NCBI GenBank assembly: GCA_949296115.1
Contig: CASFNR010000003.1
Span: forward strand, 57,310-121,309
Reading direction: 5' to 3'
Length of the DNA: 64,000 nt
From: an uncultured Eubacteriales bacterium
GTDB lineage: Bacteria; Bacillota; Clostridia; Oscillospirales; Oscillospiraceae
Positions within the stretch are counted from its first letter, which is position 1; each line of letters begins with the position of its first letter. Shown here in pieces: positions 27,347 through 64,000 of the stretch. A program made the position numbers and the translations under genes. The notes under the pieces were generated by a model. It was not told the origin of the DNA. It did not search any database and worked only from the letters and a program-made list of their open reading frames with translations.

Positions 27347-27411
27347 AGCATAAGGGACTGTGTGGTTTCACGACCATATTCTAAATTTATAATAGAAAGG
27401 CGGACATATCA

Positions 27412-28272
27412 ATGCCGGAAATCAAAATTTTAGACCTGGGCGATGTGCAGCTTGCGTACAAGGAGATCGGTTCCGGAGACAAGTACCTGATTTCAACCCA
27501 GAATTTTTTCCTGACTGACTGCCACATGGAACTGCTGGGCAAGCCGCCCTATGATTATCATTGCTTCCTGGTGTACATGCGGGGGTATGGCCAGTCCAGC
27601 CATATCACCGACCCCACCCCCCGGGACTACAACACCATCTGGGGGGAGGACATCATAAGATTCGCAGAGGCACTGAATATCCCTTCTTTCTACTATACCG
27701 GTGTGTCCCACGGCAATCTGGCCGGCTGGCATATTGCTTTCAACCGTCCGGAACTGCTGCGTGCCTTTGCCTGCGTGGACGGAATCGCCCAGTACCGGGA
27801 GAATCAGGGGCCTTTGCCCCGGACACCGGGATATTATGCCGACGTGGACGCCATGGTAGGCAACTATGAAAAATTGGAAAAGACAGCCTGGATGGAGCCC
27901 TGGCCCACGGAGAATCCCCAGCGTCTGGCCCGCCGGGCGGCAAACCATGCGGAGCATACCCAGATCCTGATGGGCCGCAAGCGGGAGGAATTCCTGATTC
28001 CCAACTGCGGAGATATGAGCTGCTGCGGCGCCAAATCGGCAGAGGAATTCTATGAGAAGCTGTCCAAAATTCCGGTTCCCACCCTGATCTGGGAAGGCGG
28101 ACTGGATCCCCTGGCCAAGGTGGAGGACGCTCTGAAGGTGGCCCAGACCATTCCCGGCGCTTCCCTGCTGACTTACCAGCACCTGGGCCATGGCGGTGCC
28201 GACGAGTGCCCGGAAATGGCTGCCCGGGACTGCGACCGGTTCTTCCGGGACGTGGAAGGACGAATCCTGTAA
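27412..28272 (+). CDS. Alpha/beta hydrolase (small esterase/lactonase-like)
   Basis: The 286-residue protein has the single-domain alpha/beta hydrolase pattern: strands at LAYKEIGSGD and HCFLVYMRGYGQSS, the nucleophile elbow GVSHGNLAG near residue 104, an acidic residue in LIWEGGLDPLAK, and the late His in LGHGGADECPE. The usual G-x-S-x-G is present as GVSHGN with Asn replacing the last Gly, a small deviation. No signal peptide. It is first in the plus-strand operon 27412-33647 that also encodes two carbohydrate esterases, a kinase and a phosphorylase. A lactonase or acyl-glycoside esterase role would fit but is not shown. Confidence 0.8.
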   Translation: MPEIKILDLGDVQLAYKEIGSGDKYLISTQNFFLTDCHMELLGKPPYDYHCFLVYMRGYGQSSHITDPTPRDYNTIWGEDIIRFAEALNIPSFYYTGVSHGNLAGWHIAFNRPELLRAFACVDGIAQYRENQGPLPRTPGYYADVDAMVGNYEKLEKTAWMEPWPTENPQRLARRAANHAEHTQILMGRKREEFLIPNCGDMSCCGAKSAEEFYEKLSKIPVPTLIWEGGLDPLAKVEDALKVAQTIPGASLLTYQHLGHGGADECPEMAARDCDRFFRDVEGRIL

Positions 28273-28287
28273 AGGGAGGAAAAGCAT

Positions 28288-29820
28288 ATGAAACTGCAGC
28301 CTGCATTGTTGTTTGGTGAATCCATGATCCTGCAGCGCCGCAAGCCAATCCCGGTGTGGGGGCGGAGCGTGCGCGGGGACGTGGTGACGGTAACCCTGGG
28401 GGGAAACACCGCCTCCGCAGTGGCGGAGGGTGGCCTCTGGCAGGTGACCCTGCCCCCCATGGAAGCGGCAGAAGGGGTCGCCATGACCATCAGCTCTCAG
28501 ATCACCGGTGAAAAAGTTGAATTTTCCAGTGTCGCAGTGGGAGAAGTGTGGCTGGCCGGCGGCCAGTCCAATATGGAATTCCTGCTGAAATATGACGAGG
28601 AATTCGAACAGGTGAAGCAGCTGCCGGAAGATACCGGCCTGCGGTTCTTCCGCTTTCCCCAGGCCAATTATACCGGCTGCCTGGAGAAACAGCCCTATCC
28701 GGATGACGGATTCTGGAGAACCTGGACCAGTCCGGAGAATCGGAGCTTCTTCAGCGGCCCTGCGGCGTACATGGGCCTGATGCTCCGCAAAACCTTGGGA
28801 GTCCCGGTGGGCTTTGTGGGATGCAACTGGGGCGGCACACCGGCGGCGGCCTGGACGGCAATGGAGGATCTCCAGTCGAATCCCGCCCTCAAGACAGTGC
28901 TGGACTGGCACAAGGAGAACTGTGAACAGGTGGATCTGGCCAGCTACTATGCGGTTTCCGATCTGCCGGAACCGGAACCCTCCCGGGAGCAGCAGGAGCG
29001 GATGGACTATCTGATGATGGGCGGAGATTTCAGCAAGCTGCCCCCCATGCCCATGCCGGACATGTCCCAGATTCCCTACAGCCCCTTCAAGCCGGGTCCC
29101 AGAGCCTGCATCCGTCCCGCCGGACTGTATGAGAACATTCTCGAGCACATTGCCCCCTATGGGGTCAGAGGTATCATCTGGTACCAGGGGGAGGACGATG
29201 ACTTCCGGGGCTGGGTGGATTTCTACGATGAGAGCATGAAAACTCTGATCGGGTCCTGGCGCAAGCTGTGGAAGGAGGAACTGCCCTTCCTGCAGGTGGA
29301 GCTGGCGCCCTTCCAGGGCAGCGGCTTCAACGGCGCCAAGGACTATCCCGGTATGCGCCGAAAGCAGCGGGCCGCTGCAGATGCGCTGCCCGGGGTGCAT
29401 GATGTGTGCATCATGGATTCCGGAGACGCCATGAACATCCATGTCCGGAAGAAGCGCCCGGTTGGCGAGCGGCTGGCCCTGCTGGCCAGAAAATATGTCT
29501 ACGGCGAGTCGGACCTGCTGGCAGACAGCCCCCGGGCGGCGGCGGCAAGCCGGGATGCGGATACGGTGACGGTGCGCTTTGAAAATACCGGAGACGGTCT
29601 GACGGTACGGGGGGATCTTCAGCAGGTGCTGGAAGTCACGGCGGACGGCGCAGCGGTCACGGCGGAAGCCTGGGCAGAGGGAGACTCCCTGATTCTGCGC
29701 AGCCCGGCCTTCCGGGATGCACAGAAGGTCTGCGTCCGGTTTGCGGAGATGAATTTCTGCCAGGACCCCCTGTTCGGGAGCACCGGCCTGCCGGCGTTCT
29801 CCTTTACCATGGAGCTGTGA
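28288..29820 (+). CDS. Sialate O-acetylesterase-family protein (SGNH hydrolase)
   Basis: This 510-residue product matches the SIAE family: an N-terminal beta-domain (LLFGESMILQRRKPIPVWG), then EVWLAGGQSNMEF with the catalytic Ser in GQSN, GIIWYQGEDD, and a C-terminal beta-domain. These enzymes remove O-acetyl groups from sugars; bacterial members act on sialic acid or on acetylated xylan-type glycans. The usual D-I-H-P before the catalytic His reads NIHVRKKRPVGERLA here, with Asn replacing Asp. The protein has no signal peptide, so it acts on imported sugars. The ATG follows AAAGGGAGGAAAAGC, 15 bases after the hydrolase gene. Confidence 0.87.
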   Translation: MKLQPALLFGESMILQRRKPIPVWGRSVRGDVVTVTLGGNTASAVAEGGLWQVTLPPMEAAEGVAMTISSQITGEKVEFSSVAVGEVWLAGGQSNMEFLLKYDEEFEQVKQLPEDTGLRFFRFPQANYTGCLEKQPYPDDGFWRTWTSPENRSFFSGPAAYMGLMLRKTLGVPVGFVGCNWGGTPAAAWTAMEDLQSNPALKTVLDWHKENCEQVDLASYYAVSDLPEPEPSREQQERMDYLMMGGDFSKLPPMPMPDMSQIPYSPFKPGPRACIRPAGLYENILEHIAPYGVRGIIWYQGEDDDFRGWVDFYDESMKTLIGSWRKLWKEELPFLQVELAPFQGSGFNGAKDYPGMRRKQRAAADALPGVHDVCIMDSGDAMNIHVRKKRPVGERLALLARKYVYGESDLLADSPRAAAASRDADTVTVRFENTGDGLTVRGDLQQVLEVTADGAAVTAEAWAEGDSLILRSPAFRDAQKVCVRFAEMNFCQDPLFGSTGLPAFSFTMEL

Positions 29821-29891
29821 CCCAGGAAAAGATTCCGGGGCGAAATCCTGCCGGCAGACTGGAGGATTCCCCCATCTAAGGAGGACATAGA

Positions 29892-30965
29892 ATGGAAATT
29901 CGAAACATGCTGCCCCAGCTGACCTGCCACGGAAGAACCCGGCTTGATGGGGATTGCCTGTATATGAACTGGACCTGCACAGGGGTATCTGTGCAGTTCA
30001 CCGGGAAACAGCTCAAAGCCCGGCTCCGGGCTCTGGGGGAGGTCTCTATGGAAGGCCCCGTGGAATATCCCTGGGTTGGCGTCACGGTGGACGGCGGGGA
30101 AACTCTGGTGAATCGGTTCGAATGCCGGGAGGAGGATGCCTGGTATACCCTCTGGGAATGCCCGGATGATCTGCCCCACGTCGTCCGGCTAATCAAGCTC
30201 ACGGAGAACGCCCGGGGAAAGCTGGGAATCCTGGAACTGGAAACCGACGGAACATTCCTGGAAGCACCCCGGACGAGCAGCCGGAAAATTGAGTTCGTGG
30301 GTGATTCCATCACCTGCGGGTTCGGAAACGAAGCGGCGAACCGGGATGATCTGTTCAACCCGGCGGAGGAAAACGGCTGGATTACCTATGCGGCAACCGC
30401 CGCCCGGGAACTGGGAGCGGAGTTCAACTGCGTCAGCGTGTCCGGCATCAGCGCCAATGCACCGGAGAAGCCCTTGTTCCCCATGAAGCCCATGCGGGAG
30501 CTGTATCCCTACTGCGACCGGCTGTACGACGATCGGATGGAGCAGGAGCCGGCAGCCTGGGACTTTGCCGGAAACCGGAAGGACCTGGTCGTGGTCAATC
30601 TGGGCACCAATGATGTCAACCCGGTTCGCTTCTACACGGATCTGGAGCAGGCTGACCGGGAGGAAGCTCATTTTATCCGGATGTACAAGGAATTCATCCG
30701 GGAGATCCGCAGCCTGAATGGCCCGGAGACGAAAATCGTCTGCGTGCTGGGACCCATGGACTTCTATCTGTATGACGACATCAAAACAGCGGTGGCCGAA
30801 TACCGGGCGGAAAGCGGCGACCAGCAGGTCTGGAGTCTGAAGATCATCGGAACGAATCTGATGACGGAGGGCTTTGGCGCAGTGGGCCATCCTTCCGCCA
30901 AGACCCACCAGCGGGCTGGCAGGGAACTGGCCGCCAGACTCCGGCAAATTCTGAACTGGGAATAA
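29892..30965 (+). CDS. CE2-type SGNH carbohydrate esterase
   Basis: The 357-residue protein has a beta-sandwich N-terminal domain followed by an SGNH esterase domain, the order found in carbohydrate esterase family 2 acetyl esterases. The nucleophile Ser is in EFVGDSITCGFGNE near residue 137, the Gly and Asn blocks are in VVVNLGTNDVN, and the catalytic His is in VGHPSAKTHQ. CE2 enzymes often rely on a Ser-His dyad and remove acetyl groups from xylo- or mannan-type sugars. No signal peptide is present. The gene is behind TAAGGAGGACATAGA and between the SIAE-like and the kinase genes, strengthening the idea of an acetylated-sugar substrate. Confidence 0.85.
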   Translation: MEIRNMLPQLTCHGRTRLDGDCLYMNWTCTGVSVQFTGKQLKARLRALGEVSMEGPVEYPWVGVTVDGGETLVNRFECREEDAWYTLWECPDDLPHVVRLIKLTENARGKLGILELETDGTFLEAPRTSSRKIEFVGDSITCGFGNEAANRDDLFNPAEENGWITYAATAARELGAEFNCVSVSGISANAPEKPLFPMKPMRELYPYCDRLYDDRMEQEPAAWDFAGNRKDLVVVNLGTNDVNPVRFYTDLEQADREEAHFIRMYKEFIREIRSLNGPETKIVCVLGPMDFYLYDDIKTAVAEYRAESGDQQVWSLKIIGTNLMTEGFGAVGHPSAKTHQRAGRELAARLRQILNWE

Positions 30966-30986
30966 GGATAAAAGGAGCGTTCAGCC

Positions 30987-31940
30987 ATGAAAGAAAACAG
31001 ACTCGCCCTCCTGGCGGAGGGAATGAAGAACTGGAAGCCCCCGGAAATCCCCGAGAACATTCCCCATGGGGATATGCCCGGAGACAAGGTGGAAATCGGC
31101 CAGGGACATATTGACAAGGCAAATCTGATTTTCCCTCTGCTGGTGCCCATGGCGGCCGAGGCGGCGGAGAAAACCGGAAAAGCCGTGGTTTGCGTTTGCG
31201 GCGGGTCCGGCGTAGGCAAGTCCGAAACGGCATCTCTGCTGAGCCATTACTTCCGCAGCGCCGGCGTGGGAAGCTATACCCTTTCCGGGGACAACTATCC
31301 CCGGAGAATTCCCATGTACAACGACGCAGAGCGGGTCCGGGTTTTCCGCACCGCCGGCCTGGAAGGCATGCTGGAGCAGAAGGTTTACTCTGCCGAGGCG
31401 GGCCGGACCCTGCAGGAACTGTGGGAAAAGGAAACGGATGCCGACCCGGGAAAGGCAAAGGAATATCCCTGGCTGGCGGTATACCAGCAGGCAGGCAGAA
31501 AAGCCCTCAGCGGCTATCTGGGTACAGACCTGGAGCAGGACTATGAGCAGCTGAGCAGAATTATCGCCGCCTTCAAGGCCGGGGAAGAAACCATCTGGCT
31601 CAAGCGCATGGGCCGGACAGAGGACCAGCGCTGGTATGATGCCGTGGATTTTTCCGATGTGCAGGTGCTGATCATTGAATGGACCCACGGGAACAGCGAC
31701 CACCTTCAGGGCGTGGACGTTCCGGTGCTGCTCAACAGCACCCCGGAGGAAACCCGGGCCCATCGGCGCGCCCGGAACCGGGACGGTAAGACGGACAGCG
31801 CCTTTACTACCATGGTGCTGGAAATTGAGCAGCAGGAGCTGGATTCCTGCGCCCACAAGGCAAAGCTGATTATCTCCAAGAGCGGGCAGGTGCTGTCCTA
31901 CGAGCAGTACCGCCGGCTGATGGACGGCCAGGAGGGATAA
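30987..31940 (+). CDS. P-loop kinase (adenylylsulfate/uridine kinase-like), probably sugar-directed
   Basis: The 317-residue protein carries a P-loop VVCVCGGSGVGKSETA near residue 73, and a later Asp-Glu-type segment VLIIEWTHGNSDHL where family members bind Mg2+ and substrate. It resembles the adenylylsulfate-kinase/uridine-kinase-like superfamily but has an N-terminal extension of about 65 residues and a 60-residue insert after YNDAERVRVFR. I do not recognise a named enzyme. It starts 22 bases after the CE2 gene behind AAAGGAGCG, and its stop lies four bases before the phosphorylase start, so it is probably a partner kinase making a phosphorylated sugar or glycerate derivative. The substrate is inferred only. 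Confidence 0.6.
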   Translation: MKENRLALLAEGMKNWKPPEIPENIPHGDMPGDKVEIGQGHIDKANLIFPLLVPMAAEAAEKTGKAVVCVCGGSGVGKSETASLLSHYFRSAGVGSYTLSGDNYPRRIPMYNDAERVRVFRTAGLEGMLEQKVYSAEAGRTLQELWEKETDADPGKAKEYPWLAVYQQAGRKALSGYLGTDLEQDYEQLSRIIAAFKAGEETIWLKRMGRTEDQRWYDAVDFSDVQVLIIEWTHGNSDHLQGVDVPVLLNSTPEETRAHRRARNRDGKTDSAFTTMVLEIEQQELDSCAHKAKLIISKSGQVLSYEQYRRLMDGQEG

Positions 31941-31943
31941 CCC

Positions 31944-33647
31944 ATGACGCAGAAAAAAGGAAATCTGGGCGCCATGCTCAACGCCTATCCGGACAGCATG
32001 GGCCGGAATCTGTCCACCGCGGTGTCCGTCCTGAGCAAGCCGGAATTTGCGGATGCCTTTCAGTCGTTCTATATCCTGCCCAGCATCTTCAATACGGACC
32101 TGGACCGGGGATTTTCCCTGATTGACTACGGCCTGAATGAACTGATGGCTTCCGAGGCGGACCTGGAGAGCCTGAAGGAACTGAACATTGATCTTGCCCT
32201 GGACTTCATCCTGAACCATGCCTCCGTGCTGTCTGCGGAGTTCCAGGACATTCTGAAAAACGGCGATCAATCCAAATACCGGGATTTCTTCATTGACTGG
32301 AACCGGTTCTGGGAAGGTCACGGCACCATGACCGAGGAAGGCTACATCCAGCCGGACCCGGAACTGATCCGGGACATGTTCTTCCGGAAGCCCGGCCTTC
32401 CCATTCTGATGGTTCGTTTCCCCGATGGGCGGAACGTGCCTTACTGGAACACCTTCTATCAGGAGGTGCGCTATGACCGGGTGGATGCCCAGGACCTGAT
32501 GGGGGCCATGAAGGTCCAGTATGCCACGGCGGACGCCCTGGCGAAGCGGGTGAACGCAGCGCTGGACCAGGGTGTCCTTCCCAAGGATATGGACTTCGGT
32601 GAATTTGACAAGTACCGTGCGGCAGTGGTGGAGTACCTGGACAGCCACCGGAAGTATCTGGGACAGATGGACCTGAATATCCGCTCACCGCTGGTGTGGG
32701 ACTATTACCGCAAGACGCTGCAGACCCTGGCGGGCTACGGCGCGGCCATTGTCCGTCTGGATGCCTTTGCCTACGCACCCAAAGAGGTGGGCGCCAAGAA
32801 CTTCCTGAATGACCCGGGCACTTGGGACCTGCTGGACCGGGTGGCGGAGATTGCGAAGCCCCTGGGCCTGACCCTGCTGCCGGAGATTCACGCCAGCTAT
32901 GAGGAAAAGACCTATGATCTGCTGGCTTCCAAGGGCTACATGGTCTATGACTTCTTCCTGCCTGGGCTGCTGATTGACGCCATGGAGCGGCACAGTGGTG
33001 AAATCCTTGCCAAGTGGGCCCAGGAAATTGTGAGCAAAAATATGCTGACGGTGAATATGCTGGGCTGCCACGACGGAATCCCGCTGCTGGATTTGAAGGG
33101 ACTGCTGGATGAGCAGAGCATTGGAAAACTCATTGACACGGTGGTGGCCCGGGGGGGCTATGTGAAGAATCTGCACGGACAGAAAAACGTGTATTATCAG
33201 GTCAACGCCACCTACTACAGCGCCCTGGGAGAGGACGACCGGAAGATGCTCCTGGCCCGGGCCGTGCAGCTGTTTATGCCCGGAAAGCCCCAGATCTGGT
33301 ATCTGGACCTGTTTGCCGGACGCAATGACTATGAGGCCATGCGCCTGGCTGGTCCCGGCGGTCACAAGGAGATCAACCGCACCAACCTGTCTGCAGAGGA
33401 AATTGACCAGCGCCTGGGCATGGAAATTGTGCAGAAGCAGCTGGAGCTGCTGCGGATGAGGAACCGCTACAGCGTATTCTGCCGGGAGGCTGCGGTTTCT
33501 GCCGGAACGGAGGGCAGCTGCCTGACCCTGCAATGGGAGACAGAGGACCAGATTGCGGTTCTGAAGGCGGATTTTGCCGGTTACGGCTACGAGATTACCA
33601 TTCAGGACAAGAAGTCCGGGGAAACCCTCTATCACAGCGCACAATAA
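31944..33647 (+). CDS. GH13 subfamily 18 sugar phosphorylase (sucrose phosphorylase-like)
   Basis: Members of this subfamily split an alpha-glucosyl bond with phosphate to give alpha-glucose 1-phosphate; known ones use sucrose, sucrose 6'-phosphate, glucosylglycerate or glucosylglycerol. The 567-residue protein has the nucleophile Asp in RLDAFAYA (Asp273), the acid/base Glu in LLPEIHA (Glu314) and the third acid in GCHDGIP (Asp377), with spacings close to those in sucrose phosphorylase. It is longer than classical sucrose phosphorylases (about 490-505). No signal peptide. It ends the plus operon, with a terminator at 33659-33692. Its partner kinase gene is four bases upstream. The acceptor specificity is open. 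Confidence 0.85.
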   Translation: MTQKKGNLGAMLNAYPDSMGRNLSTAVSVLSKPEFADAFQSFYILPSIFNTDLDRGFSLIDYGLNELMASEADLESLKELNIDLALDFILNHASVLSAEFQDILKNGDQSKYRDFFIDWNRFWEGHGTMTEEGYIQPDPELIRDMFFRKPGLPILMVRFPDGRNVPYWNTFYQEVRYDRVDAQDLMGAMKVQYATADALAKRVNAALDQGVLPKDMDFGEFDKYRAAVVEYLDSHRKYLGQMDLNIRSPLVWDYYRKTLQTLAGYGAAIVRLDAFAYAPKEVGAKNFLNDPGTWDLLDRVAEIAKPLGLTLLPEIHASYEEKTYDLLASKGYMVYDFFLPGLLIDAMERHSGEILAKWAQEIVSKNMLTVNMLGCHDGIPLLDLKGLLDEQSIGKLIDTVVARGGYVKNLHGQKNVYYQVNATYYSALGEDDRKMLLARAVQLFMPGKPQIWYLDLFAGRNDYEAMRLAGPGGHKEINRTNLSAEEIDQRLGMEIVQKQLELLRMRNRYSVFCREAAVSAGTEGSCLTLQWETEDQIAVLKADFAGYGYEITIQDKKSGETLYHSAQ

Positions 33648-33658
33648 AATTAAATTGA

Positions 33659-33692
33659 GGGGAGCTGCATTGGGCGGCTCCCCCCGTTTTTT
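33659..33692 (+). terminator. Terminator of the esterase-kinase-phosphorylase operon
   Basis: GGGGAGC (33659-33665) and GCTCCCC (33677-33683) form a stem, then CCG and six T (33687-33692). Confidence 0.88.
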
Positions 33693-33699
33693 ATGATGT

Positions 33700-34503
33700 T
33701 TAGACGGGCAGCGCCCAGTCCAGGGCCGGCCCGATCATTTTGTTCCAGAATGCCCAGTCATGGACGCCGGAATCTTCCAGATAGGTAACCGGAACATTCT
33801 CATCCACCAGGAATTGATGGAATTCACGGTTCTGCTGAAGCAGGAAATCCTCGGTGCCGCAGGCCATGAACAGACGGGGAATTTCCTTCCCGGTGCATTT
33901 CAGTTCCTTCACAAGGAACTCCGGATTCTGGGGGCTTTCCAATACTTTGGCAGGATCGCCGAAGGTTTCCAGGTAGTACGGATAGTCGGCCATCATGCCG
34001 CCGTCCCACTTGTCCGGGGTGAGAGCGGCTACCTGACGGACCACCAGGGCACTGGAAAGGCCGATGGCGCAGCCGAACTGCTCCGGATAAGCCAGGGCAG
34101 TGTGCAGCGCACCGAAGCCGCCCATGGAGTTGCCGCCAATCAGGGTGTCCTCCTTGCTCTTGGCCAGGCCAAAGGTGTTCTGCAGGTACTGGGGCAGATC
34201 CTCCCCGATGAAACGGCAGTAGCCGTTGCCTACACCCGGACGGTCCAGGTAGAAGCTGATGCCGCCGTCGGGCATGACCACGGCCAGATTATACTTCATG
34301 GACAGCTCCGCCGCACCGCCGTGGTAGAGCCAGTCGCCGCTGTTGCCGGTATAGCCGTGGAGCAGAATCAGGGTTTTCATGGGGCGATCGTAGTGGGGAT
34401 TTGGCCCGAAGATCTCTTCCGGCAGTTTCTCCGGATAGAACATCCAGAAGCTGGCCGGACGAGTCAGGGCCTGGGAGCGGAATTCCACACGAATCGTTGA
34501 CAT
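33700..34503 (-). CDS. Esterase of the EstA/esterase D-like family
   Basis: This 267-residue alpha/beta hydrolase begins MSTIRVEFRSQALTR and shows MKTLILLHGYTGNSGDW, the nucleophile elbow GGNSMGGFGA near residue 125, an acidic residue in FMACGTEDF, and the catalytic His in DSGVHDWAFW. This is the pattern of tributyrin esterase / S-formylglutathione hydrolase-like proteins, which cleave short-chain acyl esters. The start at 34503 follows CAGAGGAGGTCC; in-frame codons upstream do not fit. It has its own promoter (34619-34647), divergent from the sensor kinase gene. It is the seventh ester-hydrolase type gene of the island. Confidence 0.87.
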   Translation of the reverse strand: MSTIRVEFRSQALTRPASFWMFYPEKLPEEIFGPNPHYDRPMKTLILLHGYTGNSGDWLYHGGAAELSMKYNLAVVMPDGGISFYLDRPGVGNGYCRFIGEDLPQYLQNTFGLAKSKEDTLIGGNSMGGFGALHTALAYPEQFGCAIGLSSALVVRQVAALTPDKWDGGMMADYPYYLETFGDPAKVLESPQNPEFLVKELKCTGKEIPRLFMACGTEDFLLQQNREFHQFLVDENVPVTYLEDSGVHDWAFWNKMIGPALDWALPV

Positions 34504-34618
34504 AATGCTGGACCTCCTCTGTATGATGATTGAAATTGCGAATGCTGTTGATGCTGCGGATGGTGCCGAGTGAGACAGCGTCATGCATTCCATTGCGCAC
34601 ATACTCTCCTGTTACTCT

Positions 34619-34647
34619 ATTATGGGATGCAAAAGAAGTCTTTTGAA
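34619..34647 (-). promoter_or_regulatory. Promoter of the EstA-like esterase gene
   Basis: Minus-strand TTCAAA (34642-34647) and CATAAT (34619-34624) with a 17-base spacer. The leader is about 110 bases. Confidence 0.5.
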
Positions 34648-34692
34648 AATGGAGCATTCTTTTCCAAATATGTATCGAGCCCTAAAAATATG

Positions 34693-34721
34693 TGGACAGC
34701 CAGCGGCTGACTTGCTAAAAT
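34693..34721 (+). promoter_or_regulatory. Promoter of the two-component system operon
   Basis: TGGACA (34693-34698) and TAAAAT (34716-34721) with a 17-base spacer; TGC directly before the -10 makes it an extended -10. It opens the kinase-regulator-accessory operon. Confidence 0.68.
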
Positions 34722-34782
34722 GTATGGTGGTACTGTCAAAAAAGTGCACTGTGGAGCTGCGAGGCGAAGGGAGATCGGAGAT

Positions 34783-36492
34783 ATGGTCAGGTCCTGGATA
34801 AAACAGACAACGGTTTTGCTGCTTACCATTTTGCTCTCGCTTTCCCTGTTTATCACCTGGACAAACTATAATTTCAACACGCAGATCCGCAAGACGGCCA
34901 ACCGGGAAAATACCAACACGGTGTCTACGTGGTGCAAGACGGTGGAGGTGCGGCTTGATGCGCTGCATGAGAATCTGTACGACCTGCTTCTGACAATTTA
35001 CAACAACACCGAGTTGAAACGAGGAACACCGATGATGCAGTTTGAGGCCCGTCAGAGCTGCATCGATGAAATGTCGGACAAACTGATTGCAAGTGAAATG
35101 GCAGAGGCTTTTTTTGTCCGGGACGATGAGAGCCTCTTCCTGTTCTGCTCCAAGTCCGGCATTCCCAACCGGGAGGCCAGCGCCATGAAGGCGTTTGCCC
35201 TGGAGCAGACCTTTGAACAGACCACGGGCATCTGGGAAAAATCATGGCGTTTGGCAACGATAGACGAGCAGGACTATTTTGTGAAAACCATTGCGCTGGG
35301 CAAATATATGGTCGGCGCCATCAGCAAGCTTTCCCAGTACGACATTCAGAAATCCTTTAATGTTTTGGGGGAAGAAATGTCGCTGATGCTGGAGCAGAAG
35401 GATACGGAAGCGCTGTACCTGTGCAGCGGGCAGGACTGGCGGCAGGAGATGCAGAGCGAAAAGGGAGTCCGATTTTTCCAGGATGAGCGAATGGTTGCTG
35501 AGATCCCCTTTGAGGATGAAAATATTGCTGCCATTCTTGCGGTACGTTCGGATACTTTGCTGGAAAATGCGGGATACGGTTCGGCAGGGGTGCTGCTGAT
35601 TTGCAGTTTGATTTGCCTGGGGCTGATTGTGTATCTGCTGATTTTTCTGAATCACCAGGTCCTGAAACCCACCAAGGTGCTGCTGAAAGCCAACCAGGAA
35701 ATCGGGTCCGGCAATTTCAGCTACCAGATTACCGCTCCGGCCCATAACCGGGAATTTGCCGAGCTTTATGAGAGCTATAACAACATGGCGGCGCGGATTT
35801 GCCGGCTTAACCAGGAAGCATACGACCACCTGCGGCAGCAGCAGGAAAACCAGCTTCGGCTGTTCCGGGCGCAGATCAAGCCGCATTTCTACCTGAATGC
35901 GATTACCACCATTGTGAATATGACCTACCAGGATAAACCGGAGAAGATCAGAACCTACATCTCCGGCCTGGCCAAATACCTGCGCTATATGCTCAATACG
36001 CAGGCCCGGTGGACGACGGTGGCGGAAGAAGTCACCCATATCCGAAATTATCTGCAGATGCAGGAACTTCGTTTCCCCGGGAGCATCATCGAAGACATTC
36101 AGTATGATGATGACGTGGCCCATACGCCCATTCCCATGCTGGCACTGTTTACGCTGGTGGAGAACTCCATCAAGCACGCCATGACACTTTATGAGCCTTT
36201 GAAACTGACGATTCGCTGCACCCGGTTTGAGACGGAGGGATTCGTGGGAGCCCGAATTGTGGAGGAGGACAGCGGTGACGGCTTTCCGCAGGAGGTGTTG
36301 GACATGATCGGCGGAGAAAAGCCGCCTGCAATGACCAAGGAACATCTGGGCTTGAGCAACCTGAGTTATACCTTGAATTTGATCTACCATCGAGGGGATC
36401 TGCTTCGTATCGGCAACCGACCCGAAGGTGGCGCCCGTGCGGAAATCTGGATTCCGGAAGGAGAAATAGAAGATGAAGCTATTGATTTGTGA
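34783..36492 (+). CDS. Membrane sensor histidine kinase (LytS/YesM type)
   Basis: The 569-residue kinase has a first transmembrane helix (residues 8-27, VLLLTILLSLSLFITW), an extracellular sensor of about 235 residues, a second helix near residues 265-290 (VLLICSLICLGLIVYLLIFL), a HAMP linker, the His-kinase domain and an HATPase domain. The phospho-acceptor His is about residue 368 in QIKPHFYLNAI, where most relatives read PHFLYN. N-box VENSIKHAM and the DSGDGFP G-box follow. The start at 34783 is set by GGGAG/GGAG upstream. The kinase overlaps the regulator gene by 20 bases. It should sense an extracellular sugar, perhaps with the binding lipoprotein, and phosphorylate the AraC-type regulator. 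Confidence 0.93.
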   Translation: MVRSWIKQTTVLLLTILLSLSLFITWTNYNFNTQIRKTANRENTNTVSTWCKTVEVRLDALHENLYDLLLTIYNNTELKRGTPMMQFEARQSCIDEMSDKLIASEMAEAFFVRDDESLFLFCSKSGIPNREASAMKAFALEQTFEQTTGIWEKSWRLATIDEQDYFVKTIALGKYMVGAISKLSQYDIQKSFNVLGEEMSLMLEQKDTEALYLCSGQDWRQEMQSEKGVRFFQDERMVAEIPFEDENIAAILAVRSDTLLENAGYGSAGVLLICSLICLGLIVYLLIFLNHQVLKPTKVLLKANQEIGSGNFSYQITAPAHNREFAELYESYNNMAARICRLNQEAYDHLRQQQENQLRLFRAQIKPHFYLNAITTIVNMTYQDKPEKIRTYISGLAKYLRYMLNTQARWTTVAEEVTHIRNYLQMQELRFPGSIIEDIQYDDDVAHTPIPMLALFTLVENSIKHAMTLYEPLKLTIRCTRFETEGFVGARIVEEDSGDGFPQEVLDMIGGEKPPAMTKEHLGLSNLSYTLNLIYHRGDLLRIGNRPEGGARAEIWIPEGEIEDEAIDL

Positions 36493-38068
36493 TGATGACA
36501 TCTCCACGGTGGACGTTATCCAGAATCAACTGAATTGTCAGGAACTGGGAATCACCAAGATTCTGCGGGCTTATAACGGAGAGGCTGCGAAAACCATCAT
36601 CATGGAAGAGTCTCCGGAGTTGATTCTCTGCGACATCGGCATGCCCAAATGCAGTGGAATTGAGGTGCTCCGCCACATCCGGGAGCATGGGAATGATTCA
36701 CAGTTTGCTTTCCTGACCTGCTATGAATCTTTTGAATTTGCCCGGGAGGCCATTCGCTATGGGGTTTCCAACTATCTGTCCAAGCCCATCGACTTCGAGG
36801 AGCTGAATGCCGCCCTCCACAGAATGATCCAGACGGCCAAGGCCAAATCACAGCCCTGGAAAATGACTGAGGATGAGGGGCTGGTGGACAGCCGGATCAA
36901 TAACATTCTGCGCCAGATCAACAATGGCTTTCTGGGGACCAATCGGGAACGGATCGACGGCGTTCTGCGCCGCAATCGGGTAGGGTTCAATGCGGACAGC
37001 CTCTGGCGGGTGGTGTGTTCATCGGCAGACATGACCCCGGCGCTGAAGGATGGCTGGCGGCGGGAACTGCTGGTGTTCAGTTTTACCAGATTGGTGGAGG
37101 AAGTGCTCACCGACCACATCGGGGCAGCCTACACCATTGTAAACATGGGAGATCGATTTGTGAGAACCACCTGCTATGTGGCAAAGGACAACTGCACCGA
37201 GGCGGAACTGCTCCAGAAGTGCCGGAAAATGGCGCAGCTGTGTGAGATGAACATCAATGTTACGCCGGTCAGCATTGTAGGCGACCCTATTGCATTGTAC
37301 CAGTCCAGTGATGTGGTTCCGCAGATCGATGCCCGCTGCCGGAAGCTGCGGCTGAAATCCGGAGCGGTGTACCTGATGCGGGAAACGGAAAACCTGGAAG
37401 GGAACATGACCAGCCCCCTGGATGACCAGGAGGTGATCCTGCTGATCAAAACCAGAAACCGTGAGAAATTTACGGACATGGTTACCATGGTTCTGGACAA
37501 GATTACCCACACCCAGGGGGACTCCGACAGCATGATCGCCATGCTCCACCATGACCTGCAGCAGGTATTCAGCAACTGCCTGCGGGATAACCACTTGTCC
37601 ATCCGGAGCATTCTGGAGGACGAACAAATGCGAATTCTGGATACCAACGCCACCCGGTCCTCGGAGGATATGCTGCTGTTTGCCCAGGCACTGTATGACA
37701 AGACGCTGGAAAAGCTGCAGGAACTGGCGGACTCCACGGACATCATTGCCAGCGTGAAAAAGTACATTCAGGAGAACTTCCGGGAGGACATCGACCGGGA
37801 TACCATCGCCGCCATGGCTTATATCACCCCCAACTACCTGTCCAAACGGTTCCGGACAGAAATGGGGCTGAACCTGCGGGAGTATATCAATCAGCTTCGG
37901 ATTGAGGAGGCAAAGCGGCTTCTGCTGAGCACCAACGATGCGGTCAGTGAAATTGCCAGCAAGGTGGGTTACGCCAACATCTCCTATTTTTCGACGGTGT
38001 TCCGGAAGCAATGCGGTATGAGCCCCATTGACTGGCGGAACAAAATGACAAGCGGAGGCGCCAAATGA
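36473..38068 (+). CDS. AraC-type response regulator (YesN-like)
   Basis: The 531-residue regulator has an N-terminal receiver domain with phospho-acceptor Asp54 in LILCDIGMPK, the conserved Lys in NYLSKPID, a middle linker of about 300 residues, and a C-terminal AraC-type double helix-turn-helix (DRDTIAAMAYITPNYLSK, then SEIASKVGYANISYFSTVF). Such regulators activate sugar-utilisation operons when phosphorylated. Its ATG lies inside the kinase gene, 20 bases before that stop. It overlaps the next gene by four bases. The TACTTTT elements described in this window are candidate binding sites, by inference from position only. Confidence 0.93.
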   Translation: MKLLICDDDISTVDVIQNQLNCQELGITKILRAYNGEAAKTIIMEESPELILCDIGMPKCSGIEVLRHIREHGNDSQFAFLTCYESFEFAREAIRYGVSNYLSKPIDFEELNAALHRMIQTAKAKSQPWKMTEDEGLVDSRINNILRQINNGFLGTNRERIDGVLRRNRVGFNADSLWRVVCSSADMTPALKDGWRRELLVFSFTRLVEEVLTDHIGAAYTIVNMGDRFVRTTCYVAKDNCTEAELLQKCRKMAQLCEMNINVTPVSIVGDPIALYQSSDVVPQIDARCRKLRLKSGAVYLMRETENLEGNMTSPLDDQEVILLIKTRNREKFTDMVTMVLDKITHTQGDSDSMIAMLHHDLQQVFSNCLRDNHLSIRSILEDEQMRILDTNATRSSEDMLLFAQALYDKTLEKLQELADSTDIIASVKKYIQENFREDIDRDTIAAMAYITPNYLSKRFRTEMGLNLREYINQLRIEEAKRLLLSTNDAVSEIASKVGYANISYFSTVFRKQCGMSPIDWRNKMTSGGAK

Positions 38069-38742
38069 CAATCAAGGGGATCAAAAAACGGTTTGCCCGG
38101 GATGCGCAGGCGCTGCGGGAGCTGAAGGGCAGAAGAAAGCTGTACTTTATCTGGGATTACTACAAGATTCCCGTTATTTCGGTTCTGAGCGTGGCAGTTC
38201 TCCTTCTGCTGAGCGCAGCCTTCAGCATAGGCCGGGGGGATATTGCCATGTACGCCGTCCTGGTCAATGCGAATGAAGAAGTGGAGAGCACGGTGCTGGA
38301 TGACCTGCTGTCCCGGAGCGGAATGGACCTGGAAGGGAAAACCGTGCAGGTAACGGCGAGCTACAAGCTGGGTCAGGATTATTCGGAAGCCTACGATGTC
38401 CAGACCCTGCAGGTGCTGGCGGCGGAGTTTGCCATCGGCGACCTGGACCTGTTTGCAGCGGACGAGTCCGTGTTTCAATCCTACGCGGAAAAGGATGCAT
38501 TTGTGGACCTTTCCCTGTTTATTGAGACGGAACTGCTGGACCAGCATCAGGAGAATCTTTATATTTATGAGAATGAAGACGGCTACTCCATTGTAGGCGG
38601 AATCTGGCTGCGGGAGGGGTCGCCCCTTCACCAGGCGGGCTACTACAGCGCTGATGTGCTGCTGGGCGTGGTGGCCAATGCACAGAATCTGGACGAGGCC
38701 CTGGCGGTTGCCCACCAGCTTGTCCGGGAAATGGATTCCTGA
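38065..38742 (+). CDS. Single-span membrane protein co-transcribed with the two-component system
   Basis: The 225-residue product has a basic N-terminus (KGIKKRFARDAQ), one transmembrane helix (near residues 36-56, IPVISVLSVAVLLLLSAAFS) and an outside domain of about 165 residues. The latter contains GKTVQVTASYKLGQ and VLAAEFAIGDLDLFAADE, the kind of alternating strand/helix and periplasmic-binding-like text seen in solute-binding proteins, though much too short for a complete one. I do not recognise the family. Its start overlaps the regulator stop (ATGA), so it is co-translated with the sensor system. It may present a ligand to the kinase or modulate it. No terminator is seen before the binding lipoprotein promoter. 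Confidence 0.65.
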   Translation: MTIKGIKKRFARDAQALRELKGRRKLYFIWDYYKIPVISVLSVAVLLLLSAAFSIGRGDIAMYAVLVNANEEVESTVLDDLLSRSGMDLEGKTVQVTASYKLGQDYSEAYDVQTLQVLAAEFAIGDLDLFAADESVFQSYAEKDAFVDLSLFIETELLDQHQENLYIYENEDGYSIVGGIWLREGSPLHQAGYYSADVLLGVVANAQNLDEALAVAHQLVREMDS

Positions 38743-38754
38743 AAGATGCAGGCA

Positions 38755-38790
38755 TACTTTTTTGAAACAAACCAGAATCTTTTCTAAAAT
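38755..38790 (+). promoter_or_regulatory. Promoter and TACTTTT element of the binding lipoprotein gene
   Basis: TTGAAA (38762-38767) and TAAAAT (38785-38790) with a 17-base spacer. TACTTTTTT (38755-38763) overlaps the -35. The leader of about 135 bases holds small hairpins, one with arms ACTTTTC and GAAAAGT. Confidence 0.68.
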
Positions 38791-38933
38791 GCACAAAATT
38801 TGATGCTTTAAATGAAGTTTTTTTGAAAATCTTCAACACATATTTTAAGGACTTTTCCTCTGAAAAGTGCGATGATATGGGCGTGGACAACACAATCATC
38901 CAGGTTGTCTCGGATAAATAAGGAGGAAAAATC

Positions 38934-40460
38934 ATGAAGAAAGTTCTGGCGCTCATTCTGGTCCTGGCTATGGCTTTCGGCCTGGTTGCCTGCGGTGGCA
39001 ACGGACAGGACGATTCTGCTGCAAACAATGGCACACCCGCTTCGGACGGCGGCTCTACGGCTGGCGAGCCCTATGCTGTTCAGCTGTACCTGCCCACGAT
39101 GATGACGATTCCTGCGGAAGAAGATGTTCAGGTCGTTGAGGACGCAATCAATGACTACATCCTCAATACCCTGGGAATCACCGACTACAAGATGGATCTG
39201 GTTCTGGCCTCTCTGTCCGACTATGTAACCAACGTCAACATGCAGCTGGCCGGCGGCGAAAAGATGGACCTGATTTACACCGGCCCCCTGAACACCGCTG
39301 TTGCCAACGGCTACCTGACTGACCTGACTCCCTACCTGGATAACGAGCTGGCCGGTGCCTGCGGCGTGCTGCCGGAAGGCTGGCTGAACTGCGGCGCCAT
39401 TGACGGAACTGTCTATGCGATTCCTTGCTTCAAGGGCCAGGTTCTGTCCTGGAAGTACATCTATGACGAGGCCATGGTGGACGGTGTGTACGACATGAGC
39501 ACCGTGAATTCCGTGGATGACCTGGATGCCATGCTGGCAGCCGTGAAGGAGGCCCATCCTGACGAGCGGATGATGGTTTACAACGATCAGCTGCACACCC
39601 TGTACTGCTTCCAGGATCACACCTCTGTGATCGGCACCTACTTCGCTACCGTTGGCGACAGCACCGAGATTGTGAACTACTTCGCCACCGACGCTTTCCG
39701 CAAGGGCTGCGAGAAGGCTTACGAGTGGAGCCAGCTGGGCTACTCTGATCCGGAAGGCTCTGCCAACACCCTGACCCACGACGCCGTTGTCATGGCCGGT
39801 ACCTCCAAGGGCGTTATCATGGGCCATGCCTACTCCATCGATACCATCAACCAGATGTTCACCATGAACAACTCCTACGGCGGTACCTTCAAATCTGTTG
39901 AAATCGAAACCTCCGATATGACCACCAACACCCTGGTCTACGGCATTGCATATACCTCTGAGAATCCTGCTGCGGCTGCCTCCATGCTGAACCTGATCTG
40001 GACCGATGAATTCATCGCCTCCACCCTGATCTACGGCGTTGAGGGTATCAGCTGGGAGTGGAATGAGGACCACACCTCCATCCAGTATCCCGAGGGCCTG
40101 GGCATTGACTCCGTCCCCTACACCGCCCTGTACACCTGCGGTGCGTTCGGCAACCAGTTCCTGCTGTACGGCTTCGACGGCAACACCTCCGAAGAGGACA
40201 AGGAATTCATGAGAGAGCTGATCGACAATGCTTGGTATCCCAAGCTGTTCGGCTTCACGCCTGATTCCACCAACGTGTCTACCCAGATCGCAGCCATCTC
40301 CAACGTCTACGATCAGTACTACAAGATGCTGACCTACGGCGATGTGGATCCTGATGTGTACCTGCCTCAGTTCCTGGATGCGCTGGATGCAGCCGGCATC
40401 AACGATGTAATCGCAGAGTACCAGGCTCAGGCCGATGCCTGGCTGGCGGCGAATGCCTGA
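38934..40460 (+). CDS. Extracellular sugar-binding lipoprotein of an ABC importer
   Basis: The 508-residue protein starts with a lipoprotein signal (MKKVLALILVLAMAFGLVAC) whose Cys20 would be lipid-anchored outside the membrane. A Ser/Gly/Ala-rich linker follows, then a solute-binding domain (YAVQLYLPTMMTIPAEED, and a C-terminal half containing VYLPQFLDALDAAGIND) of the size used with Lpl/Ytc-type permeases, with DUF3502-like features at the C-terminus. It would bind the sugar and deliver it to the permeases at 23038-24941. Codon choice is more biased than neighbours, resembling the str operon genes, suggesting very high expression. The gene follows GGAGG at 38922 and its own promoter. Two hairpins close it at 40502 and 40540. 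Confidence 0.9.
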   Translation: MKKVLALILVLAMAFGLVACGGNGQDDSAANNGTPASDGGSTAGEPYAVQLYLPTMMTIPAEEDVQVVEDAINDYILNTLGITDYKMDLVLASLSDYVTNVNMQLAGGEKMDLIYTGPLNTAVANGYLTDLTPYLDNELAGACGVLPEGWLNCGAIDGTVYAIPCFKGQVLSWKYIYDEAMVDGVYDMSTVNSVDDLDAMLAAVKEAHPDERMMVYNDQLHTLYCFQDHTSVIGTYFATVGDSTEIVNYFATDAFRKGCEKAYEWSQLGYSDPEGSANTLTHDAVVMAGTSKGVIMGHAYSIDTINQMFTMNNSYGGTFKSVEIETSDMTTNTLVYGIAYTSENPAAAASMLNLIWTDEFIASTLIYGVEGISWEWNEDHTSIQYPEGLGIDSVPYTALYTCGAFGNQFLLYGFDGNTSEEDKEFMRELIDNAWYPKLFGFTPDSTNVSTQIAAISNVYDQYYKMLTYGDVDPDVYLPQFLDALDAAGINDVIAEYQAQADAWLAANA

Positions 40461-52549: not shown

Positions 52550-52640
52550 GAAACGGTTGCTGTCAAGCATCAAGTTTGACGAAAATAACAACCGAACCGA
52601 GCGTATCATAAGTAACACACAATTCGCAAGAAAGGCTGTG

Positions 52641-55600
52641 ATGATCCATATGGAAATGGTCAAGGACGTGATGTTCGGCAAGACCATGCGTAAATCTTAC
52701 GCAAAGTATGAAGAGATCCTGGAGATCCCCAACATGCTGAAAATCCAGAAGGACTCCTACCAATGGTTCCTGGAGACGGGACTGCGGGAGGTTTTCCGGG
52801 ATGTGGGAACGATTACGGATTTCTCCGGCAAACTGGAACTGAGCTTCCTGGACTATACCATGGAAGACAAGGCCAAGTACACCATCGAGGAGTGCAAGGA
52901 GCGGGACGCCACCTATGCCAAGCCCATCAAGGTCCGGGTGCGCCTGCGCAACACCGAGACCGATGAAATCAAAGAGCAGGAAATCTTCATGGGTGATTTC
53001 CCTGTGATGACCAACGGCGGCACCTTCGTGATCAACGGTGCAGAGCGTGTCATCATCTCCCAGATCGTCCGCTCTCCCGGCATGTACTATGGCCATGAGG
53101 TGGACAAGGCGGATCAGCACACCTATACTGCCACGGTGATTCCCTATCGGGGCGCCTGGCTGGAATATGAAACCGACAACTCCAATGTGTTCTGGGTCCG
53201 GATCGACAAGAACCGGAAGCTGCCCATTACCTGCCTGATTCGTGCCCTGGGCGTCAAGACCGATGAGGAGATCAAGGCCCTGTTCGGCGAGGATGAGCGG
53301 ATCCTGGCCACCTTGGAAAAGGACGCCTGCAAGACCCGGGAAGAATCCCTGCTGGAAATCTACCGCCGTCTGCGCCCCGGTGAGCCTCCCACGGTGGAAA
53401 CCGCTACCGCCCACCTGGAGGGGTTGCTGTTTGACCCTCACCGCTACGACGTCAGCAAGGTGGGCCGCTACAAGTTCAACAAGAAGATGGACATCTGGAG
53501 CCGGCTGTCCGGTCAGGAAGCCGCCGAGCCCATCACCGACCCCATGACCGGTGAGATCCTGGTCATGCCCGGGGAGTTTATCTCCCGGGCCCAGGCCCAC
53601 GAGCTGAGCCGCCGGGGCGTCAATGAGGCGGTGGTCAAGGTTGGCGATACCAACGTGAAGGTGTTCTCCAACAACATGGTGGATATGTCCGCCTTCGTGG
53701 ACTTCGATCCCGCTGCGTATGGCATCAAGGAGAAGGTTTACTTCCCCGCTCTGAAGGAATTGCTGGATACCGTGAGCGCCGACGGCTGGAAGGACGCCAT
53801 CGCCGAGCACATGACCGACCTGATTCCCAACCACATCATTGTGGACGACATCATGGCCTCCATCAACTACCTGAACTGCGTGGCCATGGGCATCGGCACC
53901 CCTGATGACATTGACCATCTGGGCAACCGCCGCCTGCGCTGCGTGGGCGAGCTGCTGCAGAACCAGTTCCGCATCGGCTTCAGCCGTCTGGACCGGGTGA
54001 TCCGGGAGCGGATGACCGTCCAGGACCTGGACGCCGTCACTCCCCAGAGCCTGATCAACATCCGGCCTGTCACTGCCGTGATCAAGGAGTTCTTCGGCTC
54101 CAGCCCCTTGTCCCAGTTCATGGACCAGAATAACCCCCTGGCGGAACTGACCCACAAGCGCCGCCTGTCCGCTCTGGGCCCCGGCGGCCTGAGCCGTGAC
54201 CGGGCCTCCTTCGACGTCCGGGATATTCACTACACCCACTATGGCCGGATGTGCCCCATTGAGACCCCCGAAGGTCCCAACATCGGCCTGATCAACTACC
54301 TGGCCACCTTTGCCAAGATCAACGAGTACGGCTTCGTGGAAGCCCCCTACCGGAAGGTGGACAAGGCCACCGGCTTTGTCACCAAGGAAGTGGAGTATAT
54401 GACCGCCGATGTGGAGGATGATTACTATATCGGCCAGGCCAACGAGCCCCTGGACGAGAACGGCTGCCTGGCCAATGCCCGTATCACCTGCCGGCACCGG
54501 AATGAGATCATCGAGGTGGATCGGAACCTCATTGACTATATCGATGTGTCTCCCCGGATGATGATCTCCATCGCCACCTCCTTCATTCCCTTCCTGCAGA
54601 ACGACGACGCCAACCGGGCTCTGATGGGCGCCAACATGCAGCGGCAGGCTGTGCCGCTGCTGACCACCGAGCCGCCGGTGGTTGCCACCGGCATCGAGCA
54701 CAAGGCCGCCGTGGACTCCGAGGTCTGCGTCAAGGCCAAGATGCCCGGCACCGTCATGGCGGTGTCCGCCGATTCCATCACCGTCAAGTACGACAGCGGC
54801 GAAATCTGCACCCACCATCTGACCAAGTTTGCCCGGAGCAATGCGGGAACCTGCATCAACCAGCGGCCCATCGTGGTGGTGGGCGAACGGGTGGATACTG
54901 AGCAGATCATTGCCGACGGCCCCTCCTGCTCCGGCGGCGAGGTTGCCCTGGGCAAGAACGTGCTCATTGGCTTCGTCACCTGGGAAGGCTACAACTACGA
55001 GGACGCCATTCTGCTGAATGAGCGCCTGGTCCGGGAGGACGTGTTCACCTCCATCCACATCGAGGAGCACGAGACCGAGGCCCGGGACACCAAGCTGGGA
55101 CCTGAGGAAATCACCCGGGACATCCCCAACGTGGGCGAGGACACCCTGAAGGACCTGGACGAGAACGGCATCATCCGCATCGGCGCAGAAGTCCGCTCCG
55201 GCGACTACCTGGTGGGCAAGGTCACTCCCAAGGGCGAGACCGAGCTGACCCCCGAGGAGCGTCTGCTCCGGGCCATCTTCGGCGAGAAGGCCAGAGAGGT
55301 CCGGGACACCTCTCTGAAGGTGCCCCATGGCGAAAGCGGCATTGTGGTGGACGTGAAGGTGTTCACCAAGGAGAACTCCGACGAACTGGCCCCCGGCGTC
55401 ACCAAGTCTGTCCGGGTCTATATTGCCCAGAAGCGGAAGATTTCCGTGGGCGACAAGATGGCCGGCCGCCACGGCAACAAGGGTGTTGTCTCCCGGGTCC
55501 TGCCGGAAGAGGACATGCCCTTCCTGCCCGACGGCACTCCCCTGGATGTGGTGCTGAACCCCCTGGGCGTGCCTTCCCGTATGAACATCGGTCAGGTGCT

Positions 55601-56321
55601 GGAGGTCCACCTGGGCTATGCCGCCCGGGCGCTGGGCTGGCATGTTGCCACTCCCGTGTTTGACGGCGCCAACGAGAAGGACATCCGGGATACCCTGAAG
55701 CTGGCTGGCCTGCGGGAGGACGGCAAGACCGTCCTGTACGACGGCCGGACCGGCGAACCCTTCGACAACCTGGTCACCGTGGGTTATCCCTATTACCTGA
55801 AGCTCCACCATCTGGTTGACGACAAGATTCACGCCCGTTCCACCGGCCCCTATGCCCTGGTCACCCAGCAGCCTCTGGGCGGCAAGGCCCAGTTCGGCGG
55901 CCAGCGGTTCGGCGAAATGGAAGTCTGGGCCCTGGAGGCTTACGGCGCTGCCTACACCCTGCAGGAAATTCTGACGGTGAAGTCCGACGACGTCACCGGC
56001 CGTGTCAAGACCTACGAGGCCATTGTCAAGGGCGCCAATATTCCCAAGCCCGGCGTGCCGGAATCCTTCAAGGTCCTGGTGAAGGAGCTGCAGGCCCTGT
56101 GCCTGGATATCCGGGTGCTGGACGAGAACGGCAACGAGATCGAGCTGAAGGAAGACGACGATGATGATGAGATCGTCTACAGCGCCGACAGCGAGAATGA
56201 AACCGTTGTCGGTTCCGCAGACGAAGTTTTGGAGGCCGGCTTTGTGATTGACGAGGACGGTCCTGAGGATATCATGGATGTGTTCGACGGCATGGAAGCC
56301 GACGACAACGACGAAGAATAA
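52641..56321 (+). CDS. rpoB: DNA-directed RNA polymerase subunit beta
   Basis: RpoB is the catalytic-core beta subunit. The 1226-residue protein begins [19 protein letters not shown]; the frame is open upstream but GAAAGG at 52630-52635 sets this start. Conserved regions are present: [20 protein letters not shown] of the rifampicin pocket in its sensitive form (Asp, His and Ser positions normal), [30 protein letters not shown] and the C-terminal [17 protein letters not shown] short acidic tail with an EDDDDDE run ends the protein. rpoC begins 12 bases after the stop. No inserted domains were noted. Confidence 0.99.
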
Positions 56322-56333
56322 GGAGGCGGAAAC

Positions 56334-60029
<3,696 letters not shown>

Positions 60030-60509: not shown

Positions 60510-60935
60510 ATGCCTACTTTTAACCAGCTTGTGAGAAACGGCCGTCAGCAGGTCGCTTACAAGTCCACCGCTCCCGCTCTGCAGAGAGGACTGAACACCC
60601 TGGAGAACAAGGCCACTACCCTGCCTTCCCCCCAGAAGCGTGGCGTCTGCACCGCTGTGCGTACCACCACCCCCAAGAAGCCGAACTCTGCGCTGCGTAA
60701 GATCGCTCGTGTGCGTCTGACCAATGGTATGGAAGTTTCCGCTTACATTCCCGGTGTTGGCCACAATCTGCAGGAGCACTCTGTGGTGCTGATCCGTGGC
60801 GGCCGTGTCAAGGACCTGCCTGGTGTGCGTTACCACATCATCCGCGGCACTCTGGATACCCAGGGCGTGCAGAACCGGATGCAGGCCCGTTCCAAGTACG
60901 GTGCCAAGCGTCCCAAGGCCGGCAAGAAGAAGTAA
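60510..60935 (+). CDS. rpsL: Ribosomal protein S12
   Basis: The 141-residue S12 helps decoding at the A site. It contains [12 protein letters not shown] and [13 protein letters not shown], the loops mutated in streptomycin resistance, both in sensitive form. Length is typical of Bacillota S12. It starts at 60510 behind AAAGGAGAACGAG. Two small hairpins lie in the 68-base gap after the L7Ae-like gene (60441-60465 and 60473-60485). The gap to rpsG is a long 160 bases with three more hairpins. It is translated as part of the str operon. Confidence 0.98.
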
Positions 60936-60980
60936 TCTTCCGCTGCGCCGAATTGAATTGCCCCAATCGCCTGTTCGCAA

Positions 60981-61054
60981 GGCAAGGCCTTGCCAAAGCG
61001 TTTTTATAGATGTATAAAAACCTCTGGCCAGGCACAACGAAAGTCACACTTTCG
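60981..61054 (+). promoter_or_regulatory. Three consecutive hairpins in the rpsL-rpsG intercistronic region
   Basis: A palindrome GGCAAGGCCTTGCC (60981-60994), an exact stem TTTTTATA/TATAAAAA (61001-61008 and 61013-61020, extended by G/C at 61000/61021), and an exact stem CGAAAGT/ACTTTCG (61038-61044 and 61048-61054). In E. coli the rpsL-rpsG gap is the S7 translational operator; here it is long and structured, but I cannot tell whether S7 binds it. Confidence 0.55.
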
Positions 61055-61095
61055 AGTACCGATGAAATCATTATATTATGAAGGAGGGAAGCAAA

Positions 61096-61530
61096 GTGCC
61101 CAGAAGAGGTAATGTTCCCAAGAGAGAGGTCCTTCTCGTAAACAGCATCATGCTGGACGGCAAGAAGGGTGTTGCCCAGAAAGTTGTCTATGGTGCATTT
61201 GAAATTGTCGAGAACAAGACCGGCAAGAACGGCCTGGAAGTGTTCCAGCAGGCCATGGAAAACATCATGCCCGCCGTGGAGCTGAAGGCCCGCCGTGTGG
61301 GCGGCGCCACCTATCAGGTGCCCATCGAAGTGCGGCCCGACCGTCGTCAGACCCTGGGTCTGCGTTGGATCACCACCTACAGCCGTACCCGCAGCGAGAA
61401 CACCATGAAGGAGCGGCTGGCCGCTGAGATCATGGACGCCGCCAACAACACCGGCGCATCCGTGAAGAAGCGCGAGGACGTCCACAAGATGGCCGAAGCC
61501 AACAAGGCGTTCGCCCACTTCCGCTGGTAA
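61096..61530 (+). CDS. rpsG: Ribosomal protein S7 with an internal in-frame deletion
   Basis: S7 nucleates assembly of the 30S head and contacts the E and P sites. The start is GTG at 61096 behind GGAGGGAAGCAAA. The 144-residue protein reads [13 protein letters not shown] and then directly [12 protein letters not shown]. Bacterial S7 has about 12 more residues in between (B. subtilis reads ...RDVL, then PDPLYNSKLVTR, then LINKMMIDGKKG). The rest is normal: [47 protein letters not shown] and the end FAHFRW. The missing part begins the first long helix and touches 16S rRNA. The frame and both sides are intact, so this is either a real deletion or a clean assembly/sequencing error. Confidence 0.93.
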
Positions 61531-63808: not shown

Positions 63809-64000
63809 ATGGCAAAGCAGAAGTTTGAAAGAAATAAGCCCCACGTTAACATCGGCACCATCGGCCACGTTGACCACGGCAAGACCACTCTGACCGCTGC
63901 GATCACCAAGTACCTGTCCCTGAAGGGCCAGGCTTCCTTCGAGGACTACGCTTCCATCGACAAGGCTCCCGAAGAGAAGGCTCGTGGTATCACGATCAAC
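63809..64000 (+). CDS. tuf: Elongation factor Tu, 5' part, cut by the window edge
   Basis: Only 64 codons are in view. The product starts [21 protein letters not shown] with the G1 loop [14 protein letters not shown] and then [18 protein letters not shown], the EF-Tu switch I region. The start is behind AGGAGGAATATTTCAA. The gene continues beyond 64000, so its length, later G motifs and stop cannot be seen. The identity is certain from these motifs and its place after fusA. Confidence 0.98.

Follow-up and report, generated by a model that had tools for sequence, protein, structure and literature searches.

The rpsG gene and its surroundings

The window, by which we mean the whole stretch of 64,000 nucleotides analysed, is taken from contig C3 of a draft assembly of an uncultured Eubacteriales bacterium (G000), and near its right-hand end the order rpsL-rpsG-fusA is kept. 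The features of this region are listed below, where private denotes an insertion or deletion seen in one genome against all relatives covering the site.

60510..60935, + strand: rpsL (S12); no private indels of at least 6 nt
61081..61087, + strand: ribosome-binding site AAGGAGG, 8 nt ahead of the rpsG GTG start
61096..61530, + strand: rpsG (S7) as assembled, 144 codons plus stop, GTG to TAA; matches TIGR01029
61134..61135, + strand: junction of the private 36-nt deletion in rpsG, between codon 13 (Leu) and the next codon
61549..63627, + strand: fusA (EF-G); no private indels of at least 6 nt
63809..64000, + strand: start of tuf, cut by the contig end (C3 stops at 121309, the last base of the window)

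After base 61134 the rpsG frame passes from REVL directly to LVNSIM and is kept, with at most 1 nt of microhomology at the junction. The 12 residues that are gone read PDPNYNSVLVTK in the two nearest relatives. The sequence-only reading of this DNA had described an S7 shortened in frame near its N-terminus, and comparison with relatives bears this out in length, place, frame and segment; the missing residues had been given there as PDPLYNSKLVTR. This single gap is the only lesion in the gene, its length is 36 nt against all six relatives compared over the str region, and the remaining 144 residues are identical to those of the S7 of one relative, G006.

The assembled protein shares with bacterial uS7 (rpsG; TIGR01029, PF00177) the rpsL and fusA flanks, the start and the ribosome-binding site, which is invariant across ten aligned sequences (the window and nine relatives), and its residues 14-144 match the family well over the cut-off; it differs in being without the PDPxYNS segment. 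Against TIGR01029 (rpsG_bact) it scores 200.3 bits (cut-off 135.85) over profile positions 24-154 of 154 only, a partial match with the N-terminal segment unmatched, whereas the G006 copy covers the full profile, 1-154. Against PF00177 the score is 199.2 bits (cut-off 24) over positions 25-148. We take the missing segment to comprise the last part of the N-terminal arm and the first part of helix 1. Structure modelling had been proposed as a check, and an AlphaFold2 model of the 144-residue protein was obtained with a mean pLDDT of 68 and values under 50 for residues 1-22, too low for the deletion site to be judged from it.

Distribution of the segment among relatives

The PF00177 profile was run against 136 genus genomes, each from a different species, and matched in 71, with nothing found in 65. 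All 70 of the other genomes with a match keep the segment lost in the window: in 66 the match spans 444 nt and profile positions 1-148, and in G108, G078, G070 and G127 rpsG is cut by contig ends, yet the pieces include the segment. The 12-residue gap was seen against each of the 30 whole-genome relatives fetched, and the segment is kept in 79 of 80 further loci taken from relatives' contigs; the remaining locus lies at a contig end and begins downstream of the deletion. Across the 79 loci that are complete, the columns holding D, the second P, Y and V of the segment are invariant. A 30-base pattern spanning the junction, with up to 3 mismatches allowed, occurs in the window's own genome and in none of the other 135 of this one-per-species set. 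That all close relatives keep the segment had been named beforehand as an outcome that would speak against a biological deletion, and as far as the relatives could be tested they do keep it.

S7 was also matched in 322 of 400 genomes sampled from the family, in which weak cases were picked by per-genome E-value. Six weak cases were found besides G127, five of them at contig ends and one under the family cut-off.

The search for a second, full-length rpsG that the sequence-only reading had suggested came back empty, the assembly having a single S7 match. A single match is also the rule in the genus (70 of the 71 matching genomes, the exception being G108 with its two contig-end pieces), and 28 bases of the missing stretch, used as a pattern at 3 mismatches or fewer, gave no hit elsewhere in the G000 assembly.

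Further private deletions in the same assembly

While genus genomes without ribosomal genes were being counted, a second lesion was noticed in rpsB, as the S2 match of G000 scored 322 bits against 341-352 for 80 whole-profile matches. Here 12 nt are lost and FGHQ is gone from GVHFGHQTRRWNPKM, on which five relatives agree. A third was found in rplL (L7/L12) after loci around rplK and the ATP synthase genes had been fetched: 24 nt are lost and with them ASKLGVIK (G113 and G103 agree), eight residues of a helix that binds elongation factors. No private indels of at least 6 nt were found in RpoB, RpoC, S12, EF-G, L11, L1, L10 or the ATP synthase subunits, in the parts covered by at least two relatives.

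The scan was then widened to the first 20 kb of twenty further G000 contigs, which were compared with stretches of G113, G003 and G105 picked by contig number or size, irrespective of content. Two gene-breaking losses were detected, in both of which G113 and G003 agree. In a gene for an RlmL-like methyltransferase 18 nt are lost with a stop codon at the junction, and the ORF has 290 residues against 381 in G113, the copy of which carries THUMP and UPF0020 domains. The second lies in polC:

L182:10780-15019: polC, interrupted by a private 71-nt loss; two overlapping ORFs

The loss shifts the frame, leaving overlapping ORFs of 775 and 753 aa that match the PolC profile at 211-680 and 704-1444, whereas G003 has one ORF of 1435 aa. 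Automatic annotation would enter this locus as a pseudogene or as two genes. In Firmicutes PolC is the essential replicative polymerase, and a cell could hardly live on polC as assembled unless another copy exists; nor is the full set of five lesions (rpsG, rpsB, rplL, methyltransferase and polC) one that a living cell could easily carry.

Frequency and length of the deletions

One rule was applied to every genome. Alignments had to be at least 300 nt long with at least 75% identity, gaps at least 6 nt long with at least 23 of 30 matching bases on each side, and all covering relatives, at least two of them, had to agree. The outcome is 4 private deletions for G000, in 67.2 kb, against 0 for eight relatives taken together, in 254.9 kb. 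The 71-nt polC event splits the alignment and was counted apart, outside these 4; a second scan, for split alignments, found no deletion in any other genome on which two relatives agreed. The sample is biased in that the rpsG and rpsB stretches were fetched for looking odd, but without them G000 still has the rplL, methyltransferase and polC losses, which were not. Among the relatives, G108 shows one private insertion, 6 nt long.

Three gaps were left out of the private count, as each of them is seen against a single relative: 12 nt at C21:13481, 26 nt at C30:24503 and 12 nt at window position 2628. With G113 as the sole comparison and no demand on the flanks, gaps of at least 6 nt number 18 deletions and 2 insertions in G000, with lengths often not multiples of 3, a figure that was set aside because two untidy regions (C17:1067-1103 and C2:11198-11215) account for 6 of the 18 deletions. 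For indels of 1-3 nt, G000 against G113 shows a balance of 22 deletions and 23 insertions, and base-level quality thus looks fair, with no sign of general noise; some of those of 1-2 nt lie within open frames. Of the 12 genomes compared over window positions 27400-39000, only G102 is syntenic, and this in pieces.

Four of the five losses, of 12, 18, 24 and 36 nt, are multiples of 3 and of 6, and the fifth, of 71 nt, is neither. The chance of four or five multiples of 3 in five is 11/243.

Position of the losses relative to conserved DNA and contig ends

In the comparison with G113, about 200 nt around a position contain a median of 20 mismatches, whereas the figure around the losses is 3 in rpsG, 2 in rpsB and 0 in rplL, which places these sites in the top 4.2%, 2.6% and 0.7% for conservation, respectively. 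Over 123 bases the left arm at rpsG is a perfect match to the genome of a congener. Conservation is unremarkable at the methyltransferase site, which 25% of positions equal or exceed; this site falls outside the pattern, and shared DNA does not explain every loss.

Contigs of relatives end within the genes concerned, within rpsG in the four genomes named above and within rplL in G113, and 51 of 132 S2 matches are partial, many (counted by eye) starting in the first ten bases of a contig. In the 136 genus genomes a match is absent for S7 in 65, S12 in 45 and S2 in 20; among the 40 with a completeness of 90% or more and a contamination of 5% or less, S7 is unmatched in 8, S12 in 8 and S2 in 1. 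Ribosomal genes are often lost from the draft genomes of this genus.

Origin of the deletions

Taken together, the comparisons make it very probable that the 36-base loss in rpsG is an assembly error and does not reflect the biology of the organism. This reading is favoured because the same assembly holds other private losses, some of them gene-breaking: an error predicts private lesions in other conserved genes, some of which should break the gene, and a real, tolerated loss in S7 predicts none. Of the two options that the sequence-only reading had weighed, a very unusual essential protein and, as its main alternative, a 36-base loss in assembly, it is the second that the other private deletions favour, and the first that loses ground. 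With 85 contigs and a completeness of 89.58%, G000 appears to be a metagenome bin in draft form, from a genus rich in very similar species, and the organism itself presumably has intact genes, which reads would be expected to show.

As to how such losses could arise, ribosomal stretches identical between congeners over about 100 bases or more would form a tangle for the assembler. At DNA common to several congeners in the sample, the assembler most likely joined both sides minus the bases between, which would have been dropped at a graph or scaffolding step. The contigs of relatives often break in ribosomal genes, and in the G000 draft the sides would instead have been joined with bases missing. 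The losses resemble local misassembly in metagenome drafts in being private, several per assembly and gene-breaking in two cases, and in that three of the five lie in DNA near-identical between congeners. They differ from it in their lengths, which range from 12 to 71 nt and of which four out of five are multiples of 6. Such multiples would not be expected of an ordinary misjoin and are a point against an artefact, and we know of no described assembly error with this signature. It is mainly on account of these lengths that we stop short of regarding the error as certain. A ladder of k-mer sizes with a step of 12 was considered as a cause, as an idea only, but the losses of 18 and 71 nt do not fit it.

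Other routes to the junctions were tried and set aside. A chimera of two strains was looked for at the rpsG junction, but G113 and/or G006 come out as nearest for the rpsL side as well as for rpsG and fusA; the lack of a visible chimera is itself a point against the artefact reading. Slippage between direct repeats does not fit repeats of at most 1 nt at the rpsG, rpsB and rplL junctions. In the methyltransferase gene and in polC, the junctions hold a few bases that are not an exact match to either flank in the relatives. A contig end is not the cause at rpsG, where the deletion is about 2.9 kb away from the end of contig C3.

The foremost alternative to an assembly error is a real deletion in this lineage, with an S7 that remains functional although its N-terminal arm has lost its end and helix 1 its start. 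The kept rpsG frame, the identity of the remaining 144 residues to the S7 of G006 and the balanced 1-3 nt indels against G113, which show that the sequence is not generally noisy, are all in keeping with this. The same organism would, however, also require a polC with a shifted frame, the absence of FGHQ from S2 and of eight residues from L7/L12, and a stop in the methyltransferase; none of these lesions is found in the relatives compared, and the direct repeat flanking the rpsG junction is at most 1 nt. We regard a real deletion as unlikely. The losses in rpsG, rpsB and rplL keep the frame, which would suggest selection, but the polC frameshift and the stop in the methyltransferase take this argument away.

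It is less probable still, and in our view very unlikely, that decaying duplicates were seen and that the intact copies are in DNA missing from the assembly. Parts are indeed missing from an assembly of this completeness, and rplB (PF00181) is unmatched in G000 and matched in 8 of the 10 genomes of that search, but the single S7 match noted above, both in G000 and almost throughout the genus, the usual neighbourhoods of rpsG and rplL and the improbability of rpsG, rpsB, rplL and polC all being copied simultaneously argue against it. That the lineage trimmed S7, S2 and L7/L12 together to a pared-down ribosome, with a split PolC or one restored by recoding, is just as improbable.

A loss of this kind in S7 would be startling if it were real; it is most likely an error and for that reason worth recording. 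In genera with many close species, short losses in draft assemblies can mimic clean in-frame deletions, and can do so in the most conserved genes. When a conserved segment is found to be missing, the other conserved genes of that assembly should be the first to be checked. The case would be very striking if reads confirmed the junctions.

Additional observations

The leader between rpsL and rpsG (60990-61095) is near-invariant in the ten sequences, the window and nine relatives, with predicted stems and little covariation, as there is hardly any variation. A search of 60900-61250 against Rfam gave no match up to E = 1. The stretch 60990-61095 is a candidate for a site of S7 control, such as the str operon of E. 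coli has.

The rplKA-rplJL cluster varies within the genus. Between rplA and rplJ, G113 (L162:12464-15000) and G103 (L172:11188-14736) carry different genes, the two genes are close together in G000 (L161), and in G105 (L164:1-7000) rplJ was not seen in the 7 kb examined.

Contig C16 of G000 and contig C11 of G105 have 85213 bases each, and their first 20 kb differ. On the minus strand of the window an open frame of 2441 codons (52563-59888) runs antisense to rpoB and rpoC and is probably a by-product of codon usage.
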